Positions 28,119 to 32,799 of a stretch of DNA of 64,000 nucleotides are shown one piece after another. The DNA is from an uncultured Glaciecola sp. GTDB lineage: Bacteria; Pseudomonadota; Gammaproteobacteria; Enterobacterales; Alteromonadaceae. The notes beneath the pieces were generated by a model. The model worked only from the letters and a program-made list of their open reading frames with translations. It had not been told where the DNA came from and ran no database searches. The number at the start of each line of letters is the position of its first letter. The first letter of the stretch is position 1. The position numbers were made by a program, and so were the translations under genes. The stretch spans positions 124,001-188,000 of the forward strand of contig CAJQOP010000003.1 in the NCBI GenBank assembly GCA_905479945.1, read 5' to 3'.

Positions 28119-28195
28119 TCACAATAAACTTGAATATCCTCGGCAAGTGTGAAAATTTGAGGAACAAAATACCAGACATTATAGGAAACCTTACT

Positions 28196-29917
28196 TTGCT
28201 GCCTTACAATCCTGTCCGTTTAATAAGAACAATATTTGTTGTTAGTTTGTGCGCCGTCACTGTCGGTTGTGGACAACAACAAGCTGCGTCTGCTTCTTCG
28301 ACTACTACTGCGACTAAGTCAAGCGCTAAGGCCGCAGTGGCAATGCCAGATAGTTTTAGTGCTGATGTTGCCAAAAATATTCTACAAAAAGGCGGTAATG
28401 CCGTTGATGCTGCTATTGCAGCTCAATTTGTGCTGGCTGTTACCTTGCCAGAAGCAGGTAATATTGGCGGCGGGGGCTTTATGTTGGTATATAAAGACCA
28501 AGTAGCTGATTTCATCGATTATCGAGAACAAGCGCCGCTGTCAGCGCATCGAGATATGTATTTAGATGAGCAAGGGAACGTGATCCCTTATCAATCTCTA
28601 ATTGGTGTGCTGTCTTCCGGCGTGCCTGGCACAGTTGCCGGTATGTGGTTGGCCCATGAGAAACATGGAAGCTTGCCGTGGAAAGAGTTAGTGCAACCCG
28701 CTGTGACGCTAGCGGAGCAAGGTTTTAAAGTGCACCCCAAACTTGCTAGCTCCATTGAAGGCCATATACAACGATTGGAAAAACGCGGATTTGAGGTCAA
28801 TTTTAAAGACTACTTTAGTTCGGCCAAAGCAGATGAGGTATTTAAACAAACTGAACTAGCAGGCACATTAAAGCGCATTCGTGATCAAGGGCGTGCTGGT
28901 TTTTATCAAGGTGAAACAGCCAAAATCATTAGTGATTTCATGCGTCAAAAACAAGGTTTAATCACTGAACAAGACTTACTTTCATATCAAGCTAAAAGCC
29001 GACAAGCTATTAAAACTAAATGGCGTGAATATGAGTTAATGACAGCGGCACCTCCTAGCTCTGGCGGTATAGCAATAATTCAATGGCTAAAAATGTATGA
29101 CTTGCTTACTAAAAACCAGACTAAACTGGCACATAATTCTGCACCTTACGTTCATTTATTAGCGGAAATAGGTAAACGCGTTTTTGCAGACAGAGCAGAA
29201 TACTTGGGTGATCCAGACTTCGTTGAAGTGCCCGTAGATGCATTAATCGCTGACGATTACCTTGCGATGCGAAGTCAAAGTATACTGCGAGACCGAATTT
29301 CCGTAACTGAAGACATCAAGCCAGGCTTAAAAGAAAGTGAGCAAACCACGCATTTTTCCATAATGGATAAATGGGGCAATGCGGTTTCAAACACGACTAC
29401 GATTAATATAGGTTTTGGCAGCAGCGTTGTAGTCGAGGGAGCTGGTTTTTTACTTAATGATGAGATGGATGATTTCAGCGCTAAACCAGGAGTTGCTAAT
29501 GTATTTGGCGCAGTAGGAGGGCAAGCGAATGAAATACAGCCCAAAAAGCGCATGTTGTCATCGATGACACCGAGTATGGTGCTTAAAGATAAGCAAGTAG
29601 TCATGGTAACAGGATCGCCTGGAGGCACTACAATCATTAGCTCTGTGTATTTATCTATTCTTAATGCACTGGAATTCGGATTGAGCGCTGAAGATACGGT
29701 TAACAAGCCAAGATTCCACCATCAATTACTTCCCAAGAATGTCATTCGCTACCACAAAGGCATAGAAGCTAAAGTCATAACAGATTTAGAAAGTATGGGA
29801 TACAGCATGAAAGAACGTCGATTTGGCGACATGCATGTGATTATAAGCATTGACGGTAATTTAGATGCCGCTTCTGAAGCAAATGGTCGCGGTAAATCAA
29901 TCGTGTTTGAAGATTAA
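28196..29917 (+). CDS. ggt: gamma-glutamyltransferase, predicted lipoprotein
   Basis: I prefer the TTG at 28196, with AGGA nine bases upstream, over the first possible TTG at 28130. It makes the signal peptide a normal length, ending in the lipobox VTVGC. The 573-residue product carries the whole GGT fold: NAVDAAIAAQFVLAVTLPE, GNIGGGGFML, and the autoprocessing site with nucleophile Thr in EQTTHFSIMD. The glycine-rich GSPGGTTIISS follows. The precursor would self-cleave at that Thr into large and small subunits and hydrolyse glutathione or other gamma-glutamyl compounds in the periplasm. Confidence 0.92.
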   Translation: MLPYNPVRLIRTIFVVSLCAVTVGCGQQQAASASSTTTATKSSAKAAVAMPDSFSADVAKNILQKGGNAVDAAIAAQFVLAVTLPEAGNIGGGGFMLVYKDQVADFIDYREQAPLSAHRDMYLDEQGNVIPYQSLIGVLSSGVPGTVAGMWLAHEKHGSLPWKELVQPAVTLAEQGFKVHPKLASSIEGHIQRLEKRGFEVNFKDYFSSAKADEVFKQTELAGTLKRIRDQGRAGFYQGETAKIISDFMRQKQGLITEQDLLSYQAKSRQAIKTKWREYELMTAAPPSSGGIAIIQWLKMYDLLTKNQTKLAHNSAPYVHLLAEIGKRVFADRAEYLGDPDFVEVPVDALIADDYLAMRSQSILRDRISVTEDIKPGLKESEQTTHFSIMDKWGNAVSNTTTINIGFGSSVVVEGAGFLLNDEMDDFSAKPGVANVFGAVGGQANEIQPKKRMLSSMTPSMVLKDKQVVMVTGSPGGTTIISSVYLSILNALEFGLSAEDTVNKPRFHHQLLPKNVIRYHKGIEAKVITDLESMGYSMKERRFGDMHVIISIDGNLDAASEANGRGKSIVFED

Positions 29918-29949
29918 ATTGATTGGAAGGGAAGTCAGAGTAAAAGCAA

Positions 29950-29978
29950 ACAGAACCTATAAATAGGTTCTGTTTTTT
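29950..29978 (+). terminator. intrinsic terminator after ggt
   Basis: A perfect 10-bp stem (ACAGAACCTA/TAGGTTCTGT) with a four-base loop is followed by a run of T residues. It lies 33 bp after the ggt stop. Confidence 0.88.
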
Positions 29979-30037: not shown

Positions 30038-31042
30038 TTACAATTCAAAAATTTCATCTATCCGTTGAATCATTTCTTGAGTGAAGGACCCTTTCTCTAG
30101 CAATAATGAGGCTTTCGAAGACTCACTCGATGCACCCAACGCTTTGCGCATCATTAAACTAGCAACAACTGCATCCATAACTACTTGTGGTGCAAGTGCA
30201 CCTTTATTGTCACGCATCAATTCACTTACCAATGACTGATTCGCACATTGAATTTGTATCGGTGTATTGCTTTCAATGCAGTAGTCATCTCCATTTAAAT
30301 CGGTAAAGGTCACGTCATTACTCATTCTACAGGTCTTTTGTTGACCCGCCTCAATGGTAAAGGTAGTTAAATCGCCGCGTAAAAATGACTGCAAATTCCG
30401 ATACGCTTGAATTTTGCTCTCGCCATCAATTTGTACAGCGTTAAAATCAATAATGATAGTTTCATTGGTTTCTACCAATATATTTTCAATACCTGCATGG
30501 TCTTCACTGCCGCGCTGGCCTTTCCTGTCAAAAAGAACTTCAGTGTGTAAATTCGTAGATGCCTGCTTTAATACAATTGAATCGGGTGCACACTTGTGCC
30601 CGCAAAGCGCAACAAATTGACTTGGGTTTGCCAAACCTGACTGGCTTCCGTCTTCAAAGAAGGCAAGTAAATGATGATAGTAAACCACATAGTTTTTTAC
30701 ATCTGCATGCGAACCTGAAGCTAATGCGAAGTGCTGGTCAAGATAGTCTTTCGACAGCTGCGTCCCATTGTCCATGTCAAACAAGCTAGTCCACTTACTA
30801 TTTGCTGCTTGGATGAGTTGCTGGCTATCGATCACTGGAGCAATTTTGGTATTGGCAGCTAGCTGTTGAGTATTTTGCTGATCGATATAAGCAGTGGGTT
30901 GGCGCGTATAATCTGCGATCAGGTTTTCCATAGCTTGCCAAAAGACACTCACCTCAATGCCGCACGTTGGCAATACATCTTCGTTAATGAAGGTGTATAA
31001 GCCCTGATGGATTTGACTATATTTCAAAGCTGGCATATTCAT
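30038..31042 (-). CDS. half-length malate synthase G-like protein, predicted inactive
   Basis: A 334-residue protein that aligns by eye with only the N-terminal half of malate synthase G (about 720 residues). Matching landmarks are the opening LYTFINEDVLP...FW, the NSKWTSLFD segment, SGLANPSQFVAL, LHTEVLFD, DHAGIENILVETNETIIIDF, and AYRNLQSFLRGDL. Where malate synthases have Glu-Asp after DF/DC, this protein has Asn201-Ala202. The following region that should hold the catalytic Arg in a FVRNVGH-type motif reads IQIQCANQS. The second half of the barrel, with the Mg2+ ligands and catalytic base, is absent. It is therefore probably a stable pseudoenzyme rather than a fresh truncation. It is divergent from a large XRE-family regulator. 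Confidence 0.7.
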   Translation of the reverse strand: MNMPALKYSQIHQGLYTFINEDVLPTCGIEVSVFWQAMENLIADYTRQPTAYIDQQNTQQLAANTKIAPVIDSQQLIQAANSKWTSLFDMDNGTQLSKDYLDQHFALASGSHADVKNYVVYYHHLLAFFEDGSQSGLANPSQFVALCGHKCAPDSIVLKQASTNLHTEVLFDRKGQRGSEDHAGIENILVETNETIIIDFNAVQIDGESKIQAYRNLQSFLRGDLTTFTIEAGQQKTCRMSNDVTFTDLNGDDYCIESNTPIQIQCANQSLVSELMRDNKGALAPQVVMDAVVASLMMRKALGASSESSKASLLLEKGSFTQEMIQRIDEIFEL

Positions 31043-31163
31043 TGTTTTATTCCTCTAATTCTTGGCAAGTAACTTAAGTGAAAGTAAGTAAGCATTTAAA
31101 AAGGCATTTACTTAACTTGGGAATAAGCATAGAGTAATTTTTAAGATAATTTCACAATTAAAA

Positions 31164-31176
31164 TTACACAGTGTAA
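31164..31176. promoter_or_regulatory. candidate operator between the malate-synthase-like gene and its regulator
   Basis: TTACAC-A-GTGTAA is a perfect 6-bp inverted repeat with one central base in the 218-bp divergent intergenic region, 84 bp before the regulator start. The flanks extend the symmetry (AAAA and TTTT). It is a plausible XRE-type operator, by inference. Confidence 0.4.
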
Positions 31177-31260
31177 ATTTTACAAAAATGAATGCTATGT
31201 AAAAATGAAATACACAAAGTCATATTCATAAAGTACTTGTAGCTAATAAGAAGCATAGAA

Positions 31261-32799
31261 ATGAAAAACAGCAAATCATTGAGTCGAAAATCCCATTTAA
31301 TGGGCACCAAAATTCGTAACTTACGCAAGCGAAACAATCTGACAATGGAAGATTTATCTGCCCGCTGCATCAGAGTTAACGCTGAGATAGCGCCTTCAGT
31401 TTCTTATCTTTCAATGATTGAGCGCGGTAAACGCGTGCCTAGCGAGGACATGCTGACGGTAATAGCGTCTGTATTTCAAAAGCCAATGGATTGGTTCTTA
31501 GATGATACGCCTGAAGAGAAGTCCGTTACCCCTGTAAAGGGAAGCAGGGGTGGTATTAGCGGTATTGCCTTAGAGCCTAGCTTTCTGTTTTCAAATGAAA
31601 TTTTACAAATTGCGATACCAGAAATGTTGTCACAAACTGGCACTAGTGGTCGTCAATTCGCTCATTTACTTATTCGGGCTCATCAAGAACACCACCAGAA
31701 TCATTTCCCCGACTTAGAGAGAGCTGCAGAAGAAGTCGGCTTAAAGCGCATGCCCTTGACGGTTGATGACTTATTGGGCATTGCAAAGCAACAAGGCCTT
31801 GCTATTAAGTGGTTTAAAAAGTTACCAGCTGCGGTCGCTAAAGAACTCAACATGACCTCACCGAATAGCAGCAATAGTTTAGTTACCAGCTTTTTTGACT
31901 CACCAGGCACCATTTATGTAAATCAAATATTGAAGACATCTACTAACCGACTGAAGTACGATCTTGCTGTGCACATTGGGCATAGCGTCTTACATAATCG
32001 TGACGGCCTTAAAAGCGTATTGTTAACGGGCATTAATCACAACAACACATTATCAGCTGACGGTAATCAATTTAGACAGTCTTCAACGCTAGATGCACAA
32101 GATATTTTGCATGCATGGCGTGACTTCGAATCTAGTTTTTTTGCAGGTGCATTATTGTGTCCAAAAGTTCCGTTCAGACAACTGCTTGACCGCCAAGGTT
32201 ATGAAATAAAAACCCATGAGCAAGTGGGTGTCTCGGCTTCAGTTGCAATGCGCCGAATGACAGCCGTTTCTTCATATCGACATTGGCACTACTTTGATGC
32301 TTATGCACCGGGAAAACTCAAAGCTGTCTATCGCGGAAACGGTATTCCATTGCCTTGGGGTAATATGCGTGAAGTAGAGGATCCATGCCAACACTGGGCC
32401 GTATTTCGCATGATCAATGCGCCTATTCAAGGAACAAGCGCACAAATTTCGATTTTAAATGTCGGTGATGAACCTCGCATTTATTGCTGTGAATCGACCA
32501 ATGTGAAGGACATGGCAAACAACAATCATGTGCTGTGTACCGGCATTGATTTAAATCCCGCCATTGATGCCCAAGGTGGCGATTCAGCCTCAATTGCGGA
32601 GGATCTAAAACAGGCTTGCGTGAATGGTGGTGGCTCATCAGCAATACCAGCATCAATCAAATCGCAACTATCCAGTGTTGCGCGTATTTTGAACATCAAT
32701 TGGGTCGAGCGTGGCATCGAAACCGAAGCTCGCTTAATTTGTGCTCGCGGCGCTGTGTGCCCAAGAAAGCCTAGTTGCTATAGCAAATGCGGTGATTAA
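31261..32799 (+). CDS. XRE-family transcriptional regulator (DUF3612/RamB-ScfR-like)
   Basis: A 512-residue protein. Residues of about 17-80 form a Cro/CI-type helix-turn-helix (GTKIRNLRKRNNLTMEDLSARC, SYLSMIERGKRVPS shown here in part). A central region (about 110-420) has the layout of IrrE-like/COG3800 regulators, with AVHIGHSVLH at 236-245 where a metallopeptidase would have HExxH; the Glu is absent. The C-terminus ends in a Cys cluster at 494, 500, 506 and 510, comparable to the Cys-rich tail of RamB/ScfR regulators. Those regulate the glyoxylate and acetate genes in actinobacteria. Its divergent neighbour is a malate-synthase-like protein, which fits a related metabolic role. Confidence 0.8.
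   Translation: MKNSKSLSRKSHLMGTKIRNLRKRNNLTMEDLSARCIRVNAEIAPSVSYLSMIERGKRVPSEDMLTVIASVFQKPMDWFLDDTPEEKSVTPVKGSRGGISGIALEPSFLFSNEILQIAIPEMLSQTGTSGRQFAHLLIRAHQEHHQNHFPDLERAAEEVGLKRMPLTVDDLLGIAKQQGLAIKWFKKLPAAVAKELNMTSPNSSNSLVTSFFDSPGTIYVNQILKTSTNRLKYDLAVHIGHSVLHNRDGLKSVLLTGINHNNTLSADGNQFRQSSTLDAQDILHAWRDFESSFFAGALLCPKVPFRQLLDRQGYEIKTHEQVGVSASVAMRRMTAVSSYRHWHYFDAYAPGKLKAVYRGNGIPLPWGNMREVEDPCQHWAVFRMINAPIQGTSAQISILNVGDEPRIYCCESTNVKDMANNNHVLCTGIDLNPAIDAQGGDSASIAEDLKQACVNGGGSSAIPASIKSQLSSVARILNINWVERGIETEARLICARGAVCPRKPSCYSKCGD

Follow-up and report, generated by a model that had tools for sequence, protein, structure and literature searches.

Introduction

Malate synthase G (MSG) is a textbook enzyme whose structure has been solved many times, although we know of no function assigned to its insertion domain (domain III). 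The closest described regulatory system is that of RamB in Paracoccus denitrificans, a class 2 ScfR protein which, in the available part of its description (PMC10370305), binds coenzyme A (CoA) thioesters and activates a divergent operon of malate synthase and isocitrate lyase (ICL), ms-icl. A second point of comparison is MtPrpR of the IsaR group (PDB 6cyj/6cz6; available text of PMC6765138). Here we analyse a 64,000-nucleotide stretch of DNA (the window) from an uncultured Glaciecola sp., in which the gene for a half-length MSG-like protein of 334 amino acids (aa) is divergent from the gene of a DUF3612 regulator (Table 1). In the open-licence PMC literature we found no description of a stand-alone MSG domain, or of DUF3612 and its regulator. 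Genomes and loci of the analysis are cited by our own G and L numbers.

Results

An MSG insertion domain retained beside one regulator

The 334-aa protein corresponds to the N-terminal half of MSG, lacks the catalytic half and is encoded by an intact reading frame. It scores 60.6 bits with PF20658, the MSG insertion domain (gathering cut-off 24.8), gives no match to PF01274 or PF20659 in the Pfam search, and reaches 146 and 128 bits with the active-MSG models NF002825 and TIGR01345, below their curated cut-offs of 565 and 989. Together with DFNA in place of the DCEDS motif, this agrees with the original prediction of a half-length MSG paralogue that has lost active-site residues. The predicted structure keeps an MSG-like fold in this N-terminal half and, superposed on GlcB, stops at residue 422, so that the Mg2+ ligands, placed at GlcB residues 434 and 462 in the available text of PMC5207166, are absent, as is the active-site loop. 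A structure search with the domain gave no fold other than MSG among the matches listed, MSG entries filling the list. The complete malate synthase envisaged elsewhere in the genome was found: one complete MSG is the sole PF01274 match (profile search; assembly 90.5% complete).

Pairing with the regulator is conserved at every level sampled. The regulator occurs in 17 of 60 relatives (own genome included), with a divergent MSG-family gene in 17/17. When the best 80 of 551 regulator relatives, all named, were kept from a scan of a genome collection, each of these loci had an MSG-family partner (80/80), the overlap between named loci and numbered genomes comprising at least G005, G008, G009, G010, G012, G034 and G510. 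Among 394 order-level genomes it exceeds the cut-off in 95, and all 95 carry a divergent MSG-family gene. This partner is full length in 25 genomes, partial in 5 (four open frames of 338-416 aa, one of 453 aa) and short in 65, with little beyond the insertion domain. The pairing predicted across Alteromonadales is thus borne out, and reaches Vibrio and Marinomonas. Among the matches listed for the 394 genomes, all 89 truncated MSG frames lie in regulator genomes, in a search (at least 150 matches, at most eight candidates scored per genome) that weak truncated frames in regulator-free genomes may escape; one listed short frame (G691) has an internal stop within the match. A class-level sample contains the regulator in 6 of 369 genomes (G000, G076, G225, G302, G315, G410), with truncated partners in G000 and G315, aceA then glcB in G225, aceB then aceA in G076, and loci running into contig edges in G302 and G410.

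The insertion domain is the part always kept in this regulator-linked MSG family. The short proteins consist of it, most with a C-terminal piece like its second segment (FTxxxGxDYxxx); the barrel strand between the two segments has been removed or replaced in these domain-only relatives, which form the majority and have no recognisable active-site part. In the insertion-domain tree 27 of 28 fragments cluster with regulator-linked MSGs, away from ordinary GlcB, and five of the six half-length proteins share a branch (support 92) with the full-length MSG that is paired with the regulator in Alteromonadaceae bacterium M269. Within the fetched flanks of the 80 named loci, ICL stands beside the MSG gene in 18/18 full-length loci (one MSG being split in two frames) and in 0/62 truncated ones, neighbours being called ICL by clustering, with profile confirmation in G034, G038, G046 and G225. 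The regulator tree (64 of 97 regulators, near-identical ones dropped, G076 counted as an intact operon) requires a minimum of four switches between full-length and truncated partners, its starred branches forcing three for full and short labels. A glyoxylate-shunt operon has apparently been converted, several times, into a circuit of regulator and freed MSG domain, and the half-length form is one intermediate within this wider phenomenon.

The MSG fragments are under purifying selection. Ratios of nonsynonymous to synonymous substitution rates (dN/dS) are 0.09-0.16 for the half-length genes (6 of 10 pairs of five orthologues, the four pairs with the window copy being saturated, at nonsynonymous and synonymous differences per site of pN 0.15-0.18 versus pS 0.81-0.84), 0.07-0.22 for second domain-only copies (ten pairs), 0.04-0.11 for Shewanella fragments (ten pairs) and 0-0.03 for Vibrio fragments (9 of 10 pairs), which is in line with the retained pseudoenzyme, and not fresh truncation, of the original prediction. 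Partial MSG forms (247-403 aa) recur in G000, G003, G005 and G008-G012; because the half-length form is common to several genomes it is no sequencing truncation, and on this recurrence, with dN/dS well below 1 where computable, a fresh pseudogene was rejected as well. As for the foreseen refutation by full-length relatives together with a sequencing truncation, some relatives at the locus are indeed full length, whereas truncation by sequencing is not borne out. The MSG paired with the regulator in Marinomonas phaeophyticola is broken into two overlapping frames (L219:3692-5904 (-)), followed by an intact ICL frame; the split is either a recent break or a sequencing error.

The operator and the DUF3612 regulator

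Between the two genes lies a putative triple-repeat operator, a pattern that shuffled window sequence matches 0.02 times on average. Of 101 pair loci, in which some genomes are represented more than once, 95 have a best site without mismatch and 4 have one with a single mismatch. In 60 whole genomes there are 25 sites with 0-1 mismatch, namely the 17 pair sites and 8 upstream of second domain-only MSG genes (G000, G003, G005, G008-G011, G055); the operator is also found at the second copy of G225 and at 15/15 further second copies fetched from 14 other genomes, and is absent from those remote loci of ICL and malate synthase that were inspected. Half sites of two repeats have 46 matches in 14 genomes, 40 of them at pair or second-copy places, and the remaining six (one exact) compare with 8 for a reversed control pattern. 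Very probably the regulator binds the triple-repeat operator and controls itself and the MSG-domain gene or genes and, as far as the motif tells, the circuit would contain these only. Regulation of distant aceA/glcB via the same operator was rejected, no site being found there; the available part of a Shewanella network model in the literature lists five different regulators for aceBA (PMC3223726).

A short MSG-domain gene is tandemly duplicated beside the regulator in G766 (L285:3708-5242 (+)), and both copies have an operator of their own. In three genomes a gene resembling AMP-binding acyl-CoA synthetases adjoins the second domain-only copy, in differing orientations (L108:7538-9154, L109:8214 onward, L113:5296-7020); it was rejected as a conserved neighbour, being present in G009, G010 and G225 only, while other neighbours differ.

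The four Cys of the regulator are invariant in 21/21 alignment rows, and a Pfam search finds no DUF2083 up to E 1, DUF3612 standing in its place. For residues 128-512 the best structural match is MtPrpR, at 13-15% identity in a model with a predicted local distance difference test (pLDDT) score of 65, which is consistent, at the low confidence of that model, with the expected resemblance to acetate/glyoxylate regulators. The protein probably acts like an ScfR/IsaR regulator, sensing acyl-CoA and perhaps carrying an Fe-S cluster.

Terminator-like stem-loops in the region number three against 1.2 expected (consensus scan). A gamma-glutamyltransferase gene (window 28130-29917 (+)) is convergent with the MSG-like gene, and is placed outside the system because it clustered with no gene of other pair loci.

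Table 1. Features of the window, and small annotated genes at other loci (L numbers).
Feature	Position	Strand	Basis or remark
Half-length MSG pseudoenzyme, 334 aa	30038..31042	(-)	
MSG insertion domain (domain III), segment 1, about aa 95-192	30467..30760	(-)	PF20658 match aa 98-159
Insertion domain segment 2, hairpin FTDLNGDDYCI, about aa 244-258	30269..30313	(-)	alignment, structure model
DFNA, aa 199-202, where active MSG has DCEDS motif	30437..30448	(-)	sequence comparison
Shine-Dalgarno-like AGAGGA for MSG-like gene	31051..31056	(-)	read directly
Terminator-like stem-loop, 12 pairs, 3' of MSG-like gene	29948..29975	(-)	consensus scan only
Putative operator, 36 bp, three direct repeats AATTNYACA, 14-bp spacing	31148..31183	(+)	0 mismatches
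Divergent regulator, 512 aa: XRE helix-turn-helix, weakly IrrE-like middle, DUF3612	31261..32799	(+)	
Helix-turn-helix PF01381, aa 18-79	31312..31497	(+)	38.4 bits, cut-off 23
DUF3612 domain PF12268, aa 334-508	32260..32784	(+)	357 bits; Cys376, Cys494-x5-Cys500-x5-Cys506 invariant
Small 'malate synthase'/'hypothetical protein' genes	L268:5385-5873, L269:5248-5826, L267:5275-5829		

Discussion

An MSG fragment that in many bacteria is separate, non-catalytic and tied to one regulator suggests a regulatory job of its own. Tentatively, and with somewhat less than even confidence, we favour the reading that the domain is a non-catalytic protein-binding effector, perhaps acting on a shunt enzyme, and the output of an acyl-CoA-regulator circuit. 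The ancestral target of the regulator was very probably a glyoxylate-shunt operon (glcB-aceA, aceA-glcB or aceB-aceA), of which the insertion domain alone very probably stays under its control in derived lineages. The regulator, probably sensing acyl-CoA, would control its own gene and the domain gene; the domain protein would bind another protein, most likely a glyoxylate-shunt enzyme with ICL as first candidate, and through it the acyl-CoA signal would adjust the shunt post-translationally, the shunt enzymes themselves having passed to other transcriptional control. The domain protein is taken as the output because scanning of the genomes turned up no further operator. An ICL-sized frame is present in 17/17 regulator genomes of the 60 relatives, and in 36/36 genomes picked for a short domain without full-length MSG among the matches listed, and in G315 the domain and ICL are neighbours. 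A role as helper of full-length MSG was rejected, as in G028 and G049, which have the domain, the only malate synthase is of type A, and the 36 genomes with a short domain show no other MSG match among the matches listed. It is possible, if more doubtful, that the insertion domain is a signalling module which, in regulator-linked MSGs, ties the enzyme to the acyl-CoA regulator or to ICL and has repeatedly been freed, and that Vibrio, Shewanella and Glaciecola have a closed acyl-CoA circuit of which the liberated domain is the sole output.

Several observations weigh against, or limit, the reading of the domain as effector of such a circuit. In G076 the regulator stands with aceB-aceA and MSG is absent, so that the regulator does not need the insertion domain; aceA lies between regulator and glcB in G225, and G315, from outside the 80 named loci, is an exception in keeping ICL beside a short domain. 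The operator is degenerate in G076 (4 mismatches) and has 3 mismatches in G302, and sites with 2-3 mismatches occur away from pair and domain genes, in regulator and other genomes alike, and the reversed-pattern control also gives matches; the scans cover the repeat pattern only, single-repeat or other-motif sites being outside their reach, and regulator-operator binding is read from conservation and position only. ICL presence is weak evidence because the PF00463 family is common anyway (over cut-off in 51/60 relatives). The insertion-domain tree has 94 columns and a decisive branch support of 55 (47 rows), or 97 with the MSG of G302 added, and it places X_G225 outside and H_G005 on a long branch; the regulator tree has several unsure long branches, gain and loss not being distinguishable in it. 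The regulator structure model has a pLDDT of only 65, and the regulator's sequence profile matches helix-turn-helix chains only in the PDB, MtPrpR not being found. Separately, we note that the divergent DUF3612 regulator ahead of the aceB-aceA pair in G076 (L103:9116-13688) is possibly an old form of the system.

The insertion domain might instead bind the regulator itself, as a co-repressor or anti-activator, the ancestral MSG having reported its own level and the freed domain keeping that job. This would account for the freed domain always occurring with the regulator (89/89 among the matches listed) and for an operator at all second copies examined. At equal barrel divergence, full-length MSGs paired with the regulator show smaller insertion-domain differences (0.285, 0.343, 0.421 and 0.421 in barrel bins 0.15-0.20, 0.20-0.25, 0.25-0.30 and 0.30-0.40) than in unpaired ones (0.354, 0.449, 0.504 and 0.575), a modest effect among 20 paired and 51 unpaired MSGs whose pairs are not independent, with no phylogenetic correction and 6 pairs in the first unpaired bin. 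However, a circuit without detectable output would hardly be kept for feedback alone, and the G076 regulator sits with a type A synthase, which has no insertion domain; we regard such feedback as the main rival reading but less likely than not. Improbable is the ligand sensor of the original prediction, in which remnants of the MSG active site would bind acetyl-CoA or glyoxylate. The regulator does resemble acyl-CoA regulators, and the leftover barrel strand (aa 193-225) is well conserved, with 64% identical positions among six half-length orthologues, but the Mg ligands and active-site loop are missing, the part kept throughout, the insertion domain, does not belong to the active site, and in most relatives almost all the rest has been lost; with no active site left in most family members, sensing through it is unlikely.

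In the four nearest genomes the half-length gene has 70-75% identity to the window copy and the regulator 91-92%; this faster evolution of the half-length gene could point to a fragment in decay that persists by chance next to a selected regulator. Such a remnant is very improbable given a dN/dS far under 1 for all computable pairs, the recurrence of domain boundaries, the operators carried by second copies and several apparent truncation events. The MSG-like predicted fold of the N-terminal half would also suit a split enzyme, complemented by another fragment into an active malate synthase, yet the complete MSG is the only PF01274 match in the genome, at the completeness given above, and the domain-bearing genomes G028 and G049 possess just a type A synthase, making this scarcely credible.

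Evolution has apparently performed, several times over, the inverse of a domain deletion, in which little but the insertion domain was kept, beside one regulator, and this recurrent retention makes the function of the domain directly testable. The locus also supplies a candidate operator for a DUF3612 regulator, and calls into question the 'malate synthase' label of many small proteins. The NCBIfam model NF006511 (PRK08951, 'malate synthase', 190 positions) is passed by four of the seven domain-only proteins given to it, at 178-295 bits with a cut-off of 173 (Vibrio L240, Shewanella L202, G040, G028); the second copy of the window genome (122 bits), G315 (85) and G225 (44) fall below, as does the 334-aa protein at 154.6 bits. 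The name is misleading, as it covers members without the catalytic region. In public plasmid records, small non-catalytic proteins beside a DUF3612 gene are called 'malate synthase' in Vibrio parahaemolyticus and Pseudoalteromonas, and 'hypothetical protein' in V. tritonius (Table 1).

The system resembles that of RamB, as far as the available text of PMC10370305 describes it, in having an ScfR-type regulator divergent from malate synthase-ICL genes with a repeated-box operator between them, a layout shared by the regulator-linked loci of Marinomonas, G034, G038 and G046. It differs in carrying DUF3612 where RamB has DUF2083, in an operator of three repeats at 14-bp spacing where RamB has two boxes with an 18-bp spacer, and in that most targets here are enzyme fragments, ICL having left the locus. 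With MtPrpR, in the corresponding part of PMC6765138, the points in common are the best structural match of the regulator over residues 128-512, at low model confidence, and four invariant Cys as candidate cluster ligands, whereas the Cys spacing is C-x5-C-x5-C and not C-x2-C-x4-C, identity is 13-15% and there is no sequence-profile match. Compared with domain III of MSG (PF20658), the window fragment comprises the insertion domain and the rest of the N-terminal half and, unlike domain III inside MSG, it is stand-alone, non-catalytic and set beside its own regulator.
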